Below are positions 5,050 to 24,172 of a stretch of 29,302 nucleotides of DNA, piece after piece. The notes beneath the pieces were generated by a model. The model did no database searches. It was not told where the DNA came from and worked only from the letters and a program-made list of their open reading frames with translations. The position numbers and the translations under genes are program-made. The stretch is from the IMG/VR virus record IMGVR_UViG_3300008114_000154, positions 1 to 29,302 of that record; one strand, 5' to 3'. The DNA is from a virus. The first letter of the stretch is position 1, and every line of letters starts with the position of its first letter.

Positions 5050-5859
5050 ATGTATGGATACGGAAACAGTATGTTCTTAGCAACAACAGGAATATTAGCA
5101 AGACCAAGCGGGGGTATAGACCCAGACGCTCAAGCGTTCATAACAGCGGCTGGAATAACAGACCCTACACAACAAGCGGCTATTAATACTTTGGTAGTTG
5201 ACTTGAAAGGGTATTCAATATGGACAAAGTTCACAGCAATTTATCCAATAGTAGGTGGAGTAGCAAGTTCTCATGCGGTTAATCTTAAAACTCCTGGAAC
5301 TTACAATTTAACTTTTGCAACGGGCTGGACTCATTCAAGCACAGGAATGACTCCTAATGGAAATACATATGCAAGCACTGGAATAAATATTAATAGTGTT
5401 ATGTCATTGAATAGTATGGCTTTTGGTGTATATTCAAGAACCAACAGCTCAGGTAGTCAAACTGCAGGAGCAGGAGCAGGAGCAGGAGGCCAAAATTCTT
5501 GTTTTATTGTTGAGAGATGGACTGATAATGTTTTCTATGGTCAAGTTAATACAACAACCAACACGTCAATTGCAGTAACAGATTCAAGTGGTTTTTATCA
5601 AGCAAGTAGAACAGCATCAAATGCTGTAAGATTAGTTAGAAATACAACTCACGCAACGTCATCAGCTGCATCAACTGCTAAGCCAAATTTATTTTTTTTA
5701 TTTGGTGCAAGGTCAATAGATTTAAGTAATACAGCTATTCAGAATAGCAGTAGACAAATAGCTTTTGGTTATTTATCAGATGGTTTTACACAAACAGAAT
5801 GTGATAACTTATATACAGCGGTTCAAACATACCAAACAACTTTATCAAGACAAGTATAA
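5050..5859 (+). CDS. Tail or fibre protein, possible receptor-binding / lectin-like domain
   Basis: This 269-residue protein has an N-terminal helical part containing DPDAQAFITAAGITDPTQQAAI and DLKGYSIWTKFTAIYPIVGG, a module widespread in phages and prophages of Bacteroidota. A beta-rich domain follows, suggestive of a concanavalin-like jelly roll, ending in DGFTQTECDNLYTAVQTYQTTL. Residues encoded at 5464-5487 form a (GCAGGA)4 hexanucleotide repeat giving an Ala-Gly run. A surface-binding or receptor-binding role is plausible but inferred. It overlaps the next gene by one base. Confidence 0.6.
   Translation: MYGYGNSMFLATTGILARPSGGIDPDAQAFITAAGITDPTQQAAINTLVVDLKGYSIWTKFTAIYPIVGGVASSHAVNLKTPGTYNLTFATGWTHSSTGMTPNGNTYASTGININSVMSLNSMAFGVYSRTNSSGSQTAGAGAGAGGQNSCFIVERWTDNVFYGQVNTTTNTSIAVTDSSGFYQASRTASNAVRLVRNTTHATSSAASTAKPNLFFLFGARSIDLSNTAIQNSSRQIAFGYLSDGFTQTECDNLYTAVQTYQTTLSRQV
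5464..5487 (+). repeat. (GCAGGA)4 hexanucleotide repeat
   Basis: Four perfect tandem copies of GCAGGA encode an Ala-Gly run in the presumed tail protein. Copy-number change would add or remove two residues without shifting the frame. Confidence 0.85.
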
Positions 5860-10380: not shown

Positions 10381-12543
10381 ATGAATGAAATAGAAGTTCC
10401 TTTAAAAGTCACGGGTATATCCGAAATAAAGAGCCAACTAAAAGAGGTTAAAAACGCTTTGGCTGCTGCTACCGACCCAAAAGAAATGGAAAGGTTGGCA
10501 CAAGCTGCTGGTGAACTCAAAGACCAATTAGCGGATGTCAACGAGAAAGTAGCCGTATTTGCTTCAGGTTCTAAATTTGAACAAACGTCCAACGCTTTTG
10601 GGTTAATGCAAAGTCAGTTAATGTCATTGGATTTTGAAGGAGCCGCCGAAAGCGCTAAACTATTTACAGGAACTTTAAAGAATTTAAACCCCGCTGAATT
10701 TGCAGCTGCTTTTAAAGGATTTGGTTCTGTATTAATGTCTTTAGGTTCTGCCATTGGAGTAGTAACAAAACAATTTATAGCCTTTGGTATTTCGCTTTTG
10801 GCTAATCCGATATTCTTATTAGTTGCTGTAATAGCTGCTATTGTTGCTGCTATACTTATTTTCTTAAATAAAATGGGTATTCTTAAAAAAGTCATTGATG
10901 CTTTAATGAAACCTATAAACGACCTTATAGCAGGATTTAAAGAGTTAACGGATTGGTTAGGATTAACAAGCTATGCAGCTGAAGAGAACGCTGCAAAAAT
11001 GATTGAAGCCAACGATAAAATCATGGAAAGTTCTAAGGAACGCCAAGAAACAATTGTTGGAGGTTTTGACTATGAAATTAAAATGGCTAAAATCTACGGT
11101 AAAGAAACGTTAGATTTGGAATTAGCAAAAAGCAAGGCGATAGGTAGCGAAGCACAAACGCGATTAAGCTCAGCGCAGAAAGCTTTAGCAGCTCAACAAA
11201 AACTTGGAGACGATGCAAACGCGGAAACCATTAAAAAGTTAAAGACTCAAATTAAAGAAGAAAACAATTTAATAAAAGACCAACGCAGAGAAAGAAATTT
11301 ATTAGTAGCACAGGATGTCGTAGATAAACGTGAACAAGCAGCAAAAGAATTAGAAGAGGATAAAAAGAATGCCGAAGCACGTCGTAAAGCTGCTATTGAT
11401 GCTGCTAAAAAACGAGCCGAAGACGAGCGTAAATTTGCTGAAAACAGATTGGCTGCTGCGCGATTAATAAAAGACTTAGAAATATCATTAATAGCAAGTG
11501 ACGCGGATAGGGAGATAGTAGCAACGCAAGAAAAATACGCTCGATTAATTCAAGACGTACAAAAAAACGAAAACTATACTAAGGACGAAAAGATACGTAT
11601 TCAAAAACTTTACCAACAAGAGCTTGAAGCTGAATTAGCTAAACAAGAGCAAGTTCAAATAGACACTGAAAAGGAAAAGAATCAAAAATCACTTGACGAA
11701 TACAACAAGGGATTAATGGATAAATACGCTTTAGAAGAAAAACAAGCGTTACAATTACAGGAATTACAAGCCAAAACAGCGGAACAACTAACACAATTAG
11801 CTAAAGATAAAAGAGCTATTCAGTTCGATGCTGAAGTTGCAGCGGCAGGTGAAAACCAAATCTTAATTGAAGCACTTACAGCACAATACCAAGCGGATTT
11901 AAACGCTATTGACAAAGCAGCATCTGACGAAAGAATAAGAATTAAAACAGAAGAGGAAGCTAAAAAACGCCAAGAGCAATTAGATACGGCTAACGCGGCT
12001 TTAGATATAGCTGATAAAACTACTAAGTCAATACAAAACATTGGCGATATTGCTTTTGCTGCTAAAATGGCAAAGGTTAAAAAAGGAAGCAAAGAAGAGG
12101 AAGAGTTAGCTAAAAAACAATTTAAGTTTAACAAGGCTTTACAATTAGGTAGCGCAGTAATTGATGGTGCTAAAGCTGTAACGGCTTCTTTAGCTCAAGC
12201 ACCGATTGCAATTGGCCCTGTACCCAACCCTGCTGGTATTGCGTCACTTGCTTTTGCGGTTTCATCTTCTGTGGCAACTATTGCAAAGATTGCGTCAACA
12301 CAATTTAACTCTGGCGGTGGTGGTGCTGGTGGTGGTGGTGGTGTTCCTGCTGCTTCGTCATCTTCTACAACGGGTTCTGCTGCTCCAGCCTTTAATCTAT
12401 TTGGTCAAGGCAATGATTTAAATAACGTAGGTGCGCCACAAACACAAACAAACGAAATCACGGTTAATGCTGTAGTAAGTGAAACCGAAATAACGAGCAC
12501 TCAAAATAAGATAACTAAAATAAACGAAAACGCAACGCTATGA
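10381..12543 (+). CDS. Tape measure protein
   Basis: This 720-residue protein has the usual tape-measure make-up. The N-terminal segment is helical (VTGISEIKSQLKEVKNAL), followed by a hydrophobic membrane-spanning region at about residues 132-162 (ISLLANPIFLLVAVIAAIVA). A very long charged coiled coil of Ala, Lys, Glu and Gln follows (about 200-560). The C-terminal part is again hydrophobic with a Gly-rich linker (GGGGAGGGGG). It sets tail length and enters the cell membrane during DNA ejection. At about 1.5 Å per residue the tail would be roughly 100 nm, a rule-of-thumb estimate. The stop overlaps the next start (ATGA). Confidence 0.9.
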   Translation: MNEIEVPLKVTGISEIKSQLKEVKNALAAATDPKEMERLAQAAGELKDQLADVNEKVAVFASGSKFEQTSNAFGLMQSQLMSLDFEGAAESAKLFTGTLKNLNPAEFAAAFKGFGSVLMSLGSAIGVVTKQFIAFGISLLANPIFLLVAVIAAIVAAILIFLNKMGILKKVIDALMKPINDLIAGFKELTDWLGLTSYAAEENAAKMIEANDKIMESSKERQETIVGGFDYEIKMAKIYGKETLDLELAKSKAIGSEAQTRLSSAQKALAAQQKLGDDANAETIKKLKTQIKEENNLIKDQRRERNLLVAQDVVDKREQAAKELEEDKKNAEARRKAAIDAAKKRAEDERKFAENRLAAARLIKDLEISLIASDADREIVATQEKYARLIQDVQKNENYTKDEKIRIQKLYQQELEAELAKQEQVQIDTEKEKNQKSLDEYNKGLMDKYALEEKQALQLQELQAKTAEQLTQLAKDKRAIQFDAEVAAAGENQILIEALTAQYQADLNAIDKAASDERIRIKTEEEAKKRQEQLDTANAALDIADKTTKSIQNIGDIAFAAKMAKVKKGSKEEEELAKKQFKFNKALQLGSAVIDGAKAVTASLAQAPIAIGPVPNPAGIASLAFAVSSSVATIAKIASTQFNSGGGGAGGGGGVPAASSSSTTGSAAPAFNLFGQGNDLNNVGAPQTQTNEITVNAVVSETEITSTQNKITKINENATL

Positions 12544-22549: not shown

Positions 22550-22592
22550 TGAATATGAAATTACAACCACATAATCAGAAGACTTTTTTATT

Positions 22593-22642
22593 AACCCCTG
22601 AATACGAAACGCCTCGTGGTTGTGGCTATCGGTTCGGGGGTT
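22593..22642 (+). promoter_or_regulatory. Structured 5' leader of replication gene
   Basis: In the 127-bp gap before the replication gene, AACCCCTGAA (22593-22602) pairs with TTCGGGGGTT (22633-22642) as a 10-bp stem with one wobble. Inside, ACGA (22604-22607) can pair with TCGT (22614-22617). No T-run follows, so it is not a terminator. It may control translation, RNA stability or replication priming. It matches no riboswitch class that I recognise. Confidence 0.55.
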
Positions 22643-22660
22643 ATGCTTTAAATAACAACC

Positions 22661-23236
22661 ATGACAAACACAAAAAAACCATTTGTAAAAATCAATATCG
22701 AAGACCTTGAGTACGCTAAGGAATTCTTTGATAATGTAGCCGACTATTCAGTTTGGCTTTATGCAGTTACCGAATATTATTGTGGTAATGAAGTGCATAT
22801 AAAGAAAAAAATCGTTAAGAAATATTTTGATAATTATAAAAAGACGATGAACATCGTTCTTGAAGCAAAAGAAAACGGCAAGAAAGGTGCATTGAAACGT
22901 ATTGAAAAACAATTACTTAGCGATGAAACCCTTGAAGCCCCCCTTGAAGACCCCCTTAAAGCACCCCTTGCAGTAAATAATAAAGAAATAAATAATAAAG
23001 ATAAATACATAAATATACCTGAGTTAAATGAGTTCTTAGACTACGCACGTGAAAAGGTTGCTAATATTAATTTAGCTGCAGTTACTCTTAAATATGAAAG
23101 TTGGATAGAAAGTGGTTGGTGTACAAATGTAAAAGGTAAAGAACATAAAATAAAAAATTGGAAATCTACGTTATTAAACACCTTACCTTTTTTACCTAAA
23201 CACGAAATACAACAACAACGAACTATAATCGATTAA
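22661..23236 (+). CDS. Replisome-organiser-like replication initiator
   Basis: This 191-residue protein has an N-terminal charged helical domain (PFVKINIEDLEYAKEFFDNV; KKKIVKKYFDNYKKTMNIVL), a low-complexity linker with LEAPLEDPLKAPLAV, and a C-terminal domain with LKYESWIESGWCTNVKGKEH then KIKNWKSTLLNTLPFLP. The C-terminal pattern (Y..W...GW...KIKNWKSTL) is common to phage replication initiator and organiser proteins. The linker is encoded by four 12-bp iterons followed by an AT-rich tract, as in lambda O, so the protein may bind an origin inside its own gene and load the helicase encoded next. Confidence 0.7.
   Translation: MTNTKKPFVKINIEDLEYAKEFFDNVADYSVWLYAVTEYYCGNEVHIKKKIVKKYFDNYKKTMNIVLEAKENGKKGALKRIEKQLLSDETLEAPLEDPLKAPLAVNNKEINNKDKYINIPELNEFLDYAREKVANINLAAVTLKYESWIESGWCTNVKGKEHKIKNWKSTLLNTLPFLPKHEIQQQRTIID
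22931..22978 (+). repeat. Four 12-bp iterons inside the replication gene (candidate origin)
   Basis: Units begin exactly 12 bp apart at 22931, 22943, 22955 and 22967 and read CTTGAAGCCCCC, CTTGAAGACCCC, CTTAAAGCACCC and CTTGCAGTAAAT. A 44-bp stretch right after (22974-23017) has only three G/C bases. Tandem iterons followed by an AT-rich melting region inside the initiator gene is the layout of the lambda origin. Confidence 0.75.
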
Positions 23237-23238
23237 CC

Positions 23239-23352
23239 ATGTACAAAAGACTAACTGAATTAAACGAAGAACTATTTACACTTAGACACGAAAAGAACGT
23301 ACGAGGTAAATCGGTTGGATGGGATTGGGATTTACTACCCTATACAATTAAA
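23239..23352 (+). pseudogene. N-terminal fragment of RecA-fold helicase
   Basis: The frame starting MYKRLTELNEELFTLRHEKN continues through KSVGWDWDLLPYTIK, which resembles the start of the RecA-fold replicative helicases of Bacteroidota phages. In those proteins a strand and the Walker A loop follow. Here, after about 23352, the frame turns into unrelated sequence and stops at 23421, while helicase sequence resumes in another frame (FSPETG…). The P-loop is missing. This looks like an out-of-frame deletion in phage or assembly. Confidence 0.65.
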
Positions 23353-23353
23353 T

Positions 23354-24172
23354 GTATTCTCACCGGAAACGGGAAGCGCAGCAGAAATTTACGCAGAACT
23401 TTGTTACAAGTATATCGGTAAACCATACACGGAAGGCGAATATTCAATGACAAACGCAGAACTTGTAAAGGCTCAAATGTTTATTGACGAGCATTTTATA
23501 GTTATTGACCCAATAGATGACGATTTAACGCTGCCAAAGTTTTATGAATTAGTAGATGAAATTGAACGTAAACACGAAATAACAATTCATACTACGACAA
23601 TAGACCCTTGGAATGAACTAACCGAAGAGTTTAAACACGAAGACTTAGGACGAGAAGATAAATATTTGAGTAGGATATTAGGATTAGCACGAAAGAACGC
23701 ACGTAAAACCAACCGCCATAACTGCATAATTAACCACGTTCGAGACCAACCAATGGTTCACGCTAAAACAATTGCAGGAACTGAAATTAGTTATTTTCCT
23801 ATTCCTTCAGCTCGTGACTTTGCAGGTGGTCAAGTATGGTTCCGAAAAGGTTTAAGCGTTTTAATACCTTGGAGACCACCAAAGGATTTATTGTTAGCAG
23901 ATGGAACTGGAGCGCAAGAAAATGAAGTACATTTAAAAGTTGCTAAAAGCAAACCAAAAGGCGTATCAAAAAACGGAATCTACAAAATGTACTTAGACAT
24001 TCAAAAATATCAGTATTATATGTTAGATAAATTTGGGAATAAGATTTATGCTAATCGCAACCCGTTACAAAAAGAAACGGTTTCAAAACAACTACCTTTG
24101 AATGAACCCGATATAGTTAACGGAAAAGAATTACTTTCGTTTTCGGAAAAGTTAAAAAACAATCCTTTTTAA
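23354..24172 (+). pseudogene. RecA-fold helicase remainder lacking Walker A
   Basis: Helicase-like sequence resumes with VFSPETGSAAEIYAELCYKY and runs to the stop at 24172, about 272 residues. The open frame extends back to a TTG at 23315, but those first residues are out-of-frame readings of the N-terminal fragment. Recognisable parts are a Walker-B-like TTIDPWNELTEEF, the helical LGREDKYLSRILGLARKNAR, the NHVRDQP motif, and C-terminal GGQVWFRKGLSVLIPWRPP and KSKPKGVSKNGIYKMYLD. Without the P-loop it should not hydrolyse ATP. It might still act as a non-catalytic subunit, or the gap may be an assembly error. Confidence 0.65.

Follow-up and report, generated by a model that had tools for sequence, protein, structure and literature searches.

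A candidate replication origin within the linker-coding region of a modular initiator gene in an uncultured phage

Introduction

What is a short tandem array, followed by DNA almost free of G and C, doing in the middle of a gene that seems to encode a phage replication initiator? The question arises from a viral DNA stretch of 29,302 nucleotides (IMG/VR record IMGVR_UViG_3300008114_000154, positions 1 to 29,302; hereafter the window), for which an initial annotation made from the letters alone proposed a lambda-type origin. At oriLambda, four iterons and then an AT-rich tract lie mid gene O, between the regions coding for the DNA-binding N-terminal domain (NTD) and the helicase-recruiting C-terminal part; each iteron is an 18-bp hyphenated inverted repeat bound by an O dimer, and the AT region spans 39 bp (PMC7466680, PMC6022878). 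RepA_N plasmid pSK41 likewise carries its origin centrally in rep, where it encodes a dispensable linker, and the NTD binds four Rep boxes; pPR9 is a chimera in which NTD and origin are replaced by a phage-type NTD while the C-terminal domain is kept (PMC5703833). Here we examine the locus in the window together with its relatives, and we weigh the origin reading against other explanations of the repeat.

Results

The initiator gene and its product

The initiator gene (22661..23236; this gene and its parts, the leader and the downstream helicase gene lie on the + strand) encodes a protein of 191 aa, which ORF translation and an AlphaFold2 model divide into an NTD (22661..22927), a disordered linker and a C-terminal domain of type A (23018..23236). 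The model, built on a 15-sequence alignment, is of moderate quality (mean pLDDT 65) and displays two folded parts with residues 84-115 between them at pLDDT below 50. The DNA coding for these residues contains the array together with most of the AT tract, in agreement with the initial annotation, which had placed the array in the linker of a two-domain protein. The NTD, kept in 12 distinct sequences and followed by the array type, is the putative iteron-binding part, and the C-terminal domain, swapped among relatives, is a putative helicase-recruiting module.

Searches with the initiator (P0001) gave no significant family match in Pfam or NCBIfam, no match by sequence in the PDB and, among PHROGs, just two weak, non-significant matches to families of unknown function (best E 0.005). 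A fold search of the PDB with the model was equally without significant match. The BFVD fold matches were mostly DUF6291, replisome organizer or Lin1244 proteins, with TM-scores so low that they are weak evidence for family membership, and the NTD does not reach the Pfam DUF6291 cut-off; the modelled domain may bear a weak resemblance to DUF6291 in fold, not by sequence. No related named phage was found by tblastn of P0001 against INPHARED, and a profile search of genome contigs with the NTD returned no host or prophage copy.

The iteron array and the AT tract

The initial annotation had recognised the units CTTGAAGCCCCC, CTTGAAGACCCC, CTTAAAGCACCC and CTTGCAG(TAAAT), beginning at 22931, 22943, 22955 and 22967 with a period of exactly 12 bp, and both the sequence and TRF bear this out; the latter places the array at 22929-22970 with a score of 63, the highest of all tandem arrays in the window. 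The fourth of these units is partial. The translation likewise reads as had been stated, with a frame-keeping unit and the peptide LEAP-LEDP-LKAP-LA. The phase that is kept in relatives begins three bases earlier, with the core [A/C]CCCT[T/A] at 22928, 22940, 22952 and 22964, and defines iteron 1 (ACCCTTGAAGCC, 22928..22939), iteron 2 (CCCCTTGAAGAC, 22940..22951), iteron 3 (CCCCTTAAAGCA, 22952..22963) and iteron 4 (CCCCTTGCAGTA, 22964..22975), the last being the most divergent of the four. A CTTNAAG dyad present in three of the window units is absent from relatives (CTACAATAC).

The four-core pattern has a single occurrence in the window and was absent from all 100 dinucleotide shuffles, and the period-12 score is matched by 1 of 5000 codon-order shuffles of the initiator gene. 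When the same peptide was recoded synonymously, the period-12 score was reached in 75 of 20,000 sequences and four CCCTW cores in 0 of 20,000. We also scanned the collection for four CCCTW cores spaced 12 bp apart, picking out initiator linkers by context; the matches were mostly low-complexity repeats in unrelated DNA, and the core pattern alone is therefore not diagnostic. Other simple repeats in coding sequence of the window are (GCAGGA)4 and an imperfect TGG run, at 5464-5488 and 12312-12343.

The AT tract (22974..23017) contains, as the initial annotation had it, only three G/C in 44 bp, fewer than any other 44-mer of the window, and carries three imperfect TAAATAATAAAGA repeats. By nearest-neighbour stability it ranks 1 of the 29,259 window 44-mers for low stability, and in all 10 relatives compared, the 44-mer of lowest stability in the gene begins at most 4 bp from the AT tract. 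We regard it as a putative DNA-unwinding element. The GC skew of the window has no turning point at the array and is uninformative.

Conservation of the array among relatives

Relatives of the window initiator are encoded at 20 viral loci, and the arrays were compared in 13 sequences, window included, with 52 units in all. A CCC core, nearly always CCCT[T/A], recurs every 12 bp in all 13 sequences, and the consensus of the units is MCCCTTRAAGAN, with CCC invariant. The encoded residues vary among P, T and S and among L, H and I; the units' codons for Pro, Thr or Ser nevertheless have C as their third base in all 52 cases, against C-ending shares in the window genes of 8.8% for Pro, 7.0% for Thr and 4.2% for TCN-Ser. 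Leu in the units is never encoded by TTA, though this is the commonest Leu codon (62%). Whether the repeat is conserved as DNA in relatives was a check on which the initial annotation had let its proposal depend: 12-bp spacing, CCC cores and C-ending codons are all kept, and on this comparative evidence the array is constrained as DNA, beyond the peptide that it encodes.

Exchange of domains and other array-bearing families

Among relatives, the window-type NTD and array are combined with at least five different C-terminal domains, and the window C-terminal domain is in turn found on other NTDs (L021, L172, L173, L231/L246 and others). L021 joins it to a DUF6291 NTD (E 2e-27), while in L172, L246 and others it follows O-like NTDs with an 11-bp array. 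The window leader precedes both window-type and O-like NTDs. Array type tracks the NTD without exception (window-type versus O-like), with leader and C-terminal domain common to both array types, which is what would be expected if the NTD reads the array. Relatives thus appear, from these sequence combinations, to exchange NTD and matching array as one cassette.

The O-like NTDs form a winged-helix family that PHROGs assign as O-like or DnaD-like (phrog_345, 'replication initiation O-like', E 1.4e-8; phrog_2514, E 4e-26). Their array has a unit of 11 bp, ACCAACGAGCR. Of 61 distinct linkers, 54 have 11 as their best period, and 11 beats 12 in 61/61, versus 0/13 window-type linkers, where 12 wins in all 13. 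As 11 bp is no multiple of three, the O-like arrays are not simple peptide repeats.

A further, sister family comprises 49 loci found with the L107/L178 NTD; hhalign did not support homology between this NTD and that of the window, the alignments being shallow. Its linkers carry ACCC cores, with a successive spacing of exactly 12 in 65 of 105 cases. Six members have reversed cores (GGGT), at least two each, and the peptides differ with core orientation (KGGTQGGTQG versus NPMTNPMTNP). In the linker, 132 of 136 codons preceding Pro have C as their last base; within the NTD, codons for the same residues do so in 154 of 567 instances. In the L178-L226 linkers the array is followed not by an AT tract but by a purine-rich (GAAGAGAAAGAG) one, and the least stable DNA of the gene lies outside it; an AT tract is accordingly not universal.

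Arrays within the linker also occur in named phages, at 12 bp in Riemerella PT33, Bacteroides BS-TP3 and Flavonifractor Chenonceau, and at 11 bp in Tenacibaculum Gundel_1 and Vibrio 1.259. We infer a Bacteroidota host for the window phage by comparison with those named phages whose arrays and modules resemble its own.

The leader RNA and the downstream helicase gene

Upstream of the initiator gene, the leader RNA (22561..22665) is predicted to form an H-type pseudoknot, the sole structure of its kind in the window. Stem 1 pairs 22561-22570 with the strand lying 45 to 36 nt before the start codon, and stem 2 pairs 22592-22603 with 22632-22643; the pairs are TTACAACCAC/GTGGTTGTGG and TAACCCCTGAAT/GTTCGGGGGTTA. 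A stem-1 strand, GTGGTTGT, has a second possible partner in ACAACCATGA, which lies over the start codon, and this pairing would compete with the first stem, suggesting a two-state translational switch. The same topology, as pseudoknot and/or start-region pairing, recurs with unrelated sequences in L010/L013, L019, L239, L243, L275, L287, L183 and L215, and a threshold passed by 13 of 58 distinct initiator leaders is reached by 1 of 290 shuffles and at 3 of 268 other positions. Rfam gave nothing above gathering score for the leader. Its nested-only fold is weakly better than shuffles (z -1.8), as it should be if the structure is in large part a pseudoknot, a class not scorable by the tool used.

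Directly downstream of the initiator gene lies a RecA-like primase/helicase gene (23239..24172; phrog_239, DNA primase/helicase). The window copy lacks about 100 bp covering Walker A and is frameshifted, with the junction at 23352/23353. L002 and L003 share the window sequence up to 23352, with the helicase intact beyond, and the broken gene is probably either an artefact of assembly or the mark of a defective genome. Genes nearby encode NinG, a recombination exonuclease and an Erf-like annealing protein. The downstream ATPase is of three divergent types among relatives, and comparison of C-terminal domain type with downstream helicase type revealed no fixed pairing. The three divergent helicase types (L004:1514-2545, L006:3594-4553, L007:3570-4583) share a similar tail, LPL.E.DIVNGKELLSFSEKMK..PF, whose QLPL resembles a clamp-binding motif; the tail may otherwise be a recombination border.

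Discussion

Taken as a whole, our findings make it highly probable that the array and the AT tract constitute the replication origin of the phage, lying within the linker of its own initiator gene. Binding, melting and helicase recruitment at these elements are steps that we infer rather than observe, and they may be pictured as follows. The NTD would occupy the four 12-bp sites in head-to-tail order, roughly one for each turn of the helix; crowding in the resulting complex would strain and then open the adjoining AT tract; and the C-terminal domain would load the helicase of the phage, whose gene lies immediately downstream, onto the strand so exposed. We further propose that, with the sites lying in the region coding for a disordered linker, the NTD is kept with the sites it recognises, and the two can be swapped jointly as a single cassette.

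An array of sites cognate to the NTD is also what an operator would need, and by binding there the NTD might autoregulate, or shut off transcription across its gene, with replication beginning elsewhere. Iteron systems often autoregulate as well. An operator would nevertheless sit oddly some 270 bp into the coding sequence, beside the window's least stable DNA and ahead of a helicase gene, at a position that corresponds to the origin in lambda and in pSK41, and we consider it unlikely that this is the array's role in place of an origin.

The repeat might, on the other hand, be of use to the protein only, slippage having lengthened a flexible, Pro-rich linker of LEAP repeats and left the repeat in the DNA as a by-product. 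The 12-bp unit does correspond to four codons, in a linker for which disorder is predicted; yet rare C-ending codons are held throughout the 52 units despite residue changes, the L178-family arrays occur reversed with different peptides, and the arrays of the exchangeable O-like family run out of codon register, so that this account is extremely improbable. That repeat and tract serve mainly as a recombination site for the shuffling of initiator domains is likewise very improbable. Swaps do happen at or just past this place in the gene, but partner arrays differ in period (11 versus 12 bp) and in their cores and thus offer no shared homology, and the array stays with the NTD, the break falling after it; the shuffling is more readily understood as a result of modularity.

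With respect to oriLambda, and to the origins of Stx phages, the origin proposed here is alike in its four in-linker iterons, its AT tract and the helicase gene immediately downstream. It differs in that the window units are 12-bp direct repeats without conserved dyad, whereas those of lambda are 18-bp inverted repeats, and in that the window NTD has no homology to O in Pfam, NCBIfam or PHROG, although the NTD exchanged for it in relatives is O-like. The lambda-type designation of the initial annotation therefore stands for the layout and falls for O homology and dyad iterons, and the best reading is of an element that would work like oriLambda in layout without being a member of the lambda-O family. 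The RepA_N system of pSK41 shares the origin layout inside the initiator linker, with NTD and sites as a unit; the window initiator, however, has no RepA_N domain (no match in Pfam and none by sequence in the PDB), its iterons differ in sequence and spacing, and it belongs to a phage with its own adjoining helicase gene. The DUF6291, Lin1244 and HTH_36 replication proteins, annotated as 'replisome organizer' or 'DnaD-like helicase loader', are similar in two-domain layout and by fold matches, and several of them carry 11-12-bp linker arrays; the window NTD differs in scoring below the DUF6291 model by sequence.

In the open-access literature we found no paper naming DUF6291 and no description of such an arrangement in these phages. 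The layout itself is known from lambda and from RepA_N plasmids, the pPR9 chimera included. What differs here is the NTD family, the short one-turn direct units without conserved dyad and the systematic exchange of cassettes.

More tentatively, and with doubt somewhat outweighing confidence, the same organisation may represent a broad phage design, in which iterons of 11 or 12 bp, about one helical turn, lie in the linkers of modular initiators, the cassette of NTD and array moves among leaders, C-terminal domains and helicases, and the leader acts as a pseudoknotted switch competing for the start codon. If true, this design would amount to a fully modular, exchangeable unit of replication control.

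Linker arrays of period 11 or 12 whose conservation defies codon usage offer a way of finding origins in uncultured phages from sequence alone, and in the window family the array that would mark the origin adjoins the least stable DNA. Metagenomes provide in addition a natural swap experiment that ties DNA-binding domains to their sites, since a different NTD comes with a different array and other parts of the gene vary independently of it, and the small size of the initiator makes specificity, phasing and helicase recruitment directly testable.
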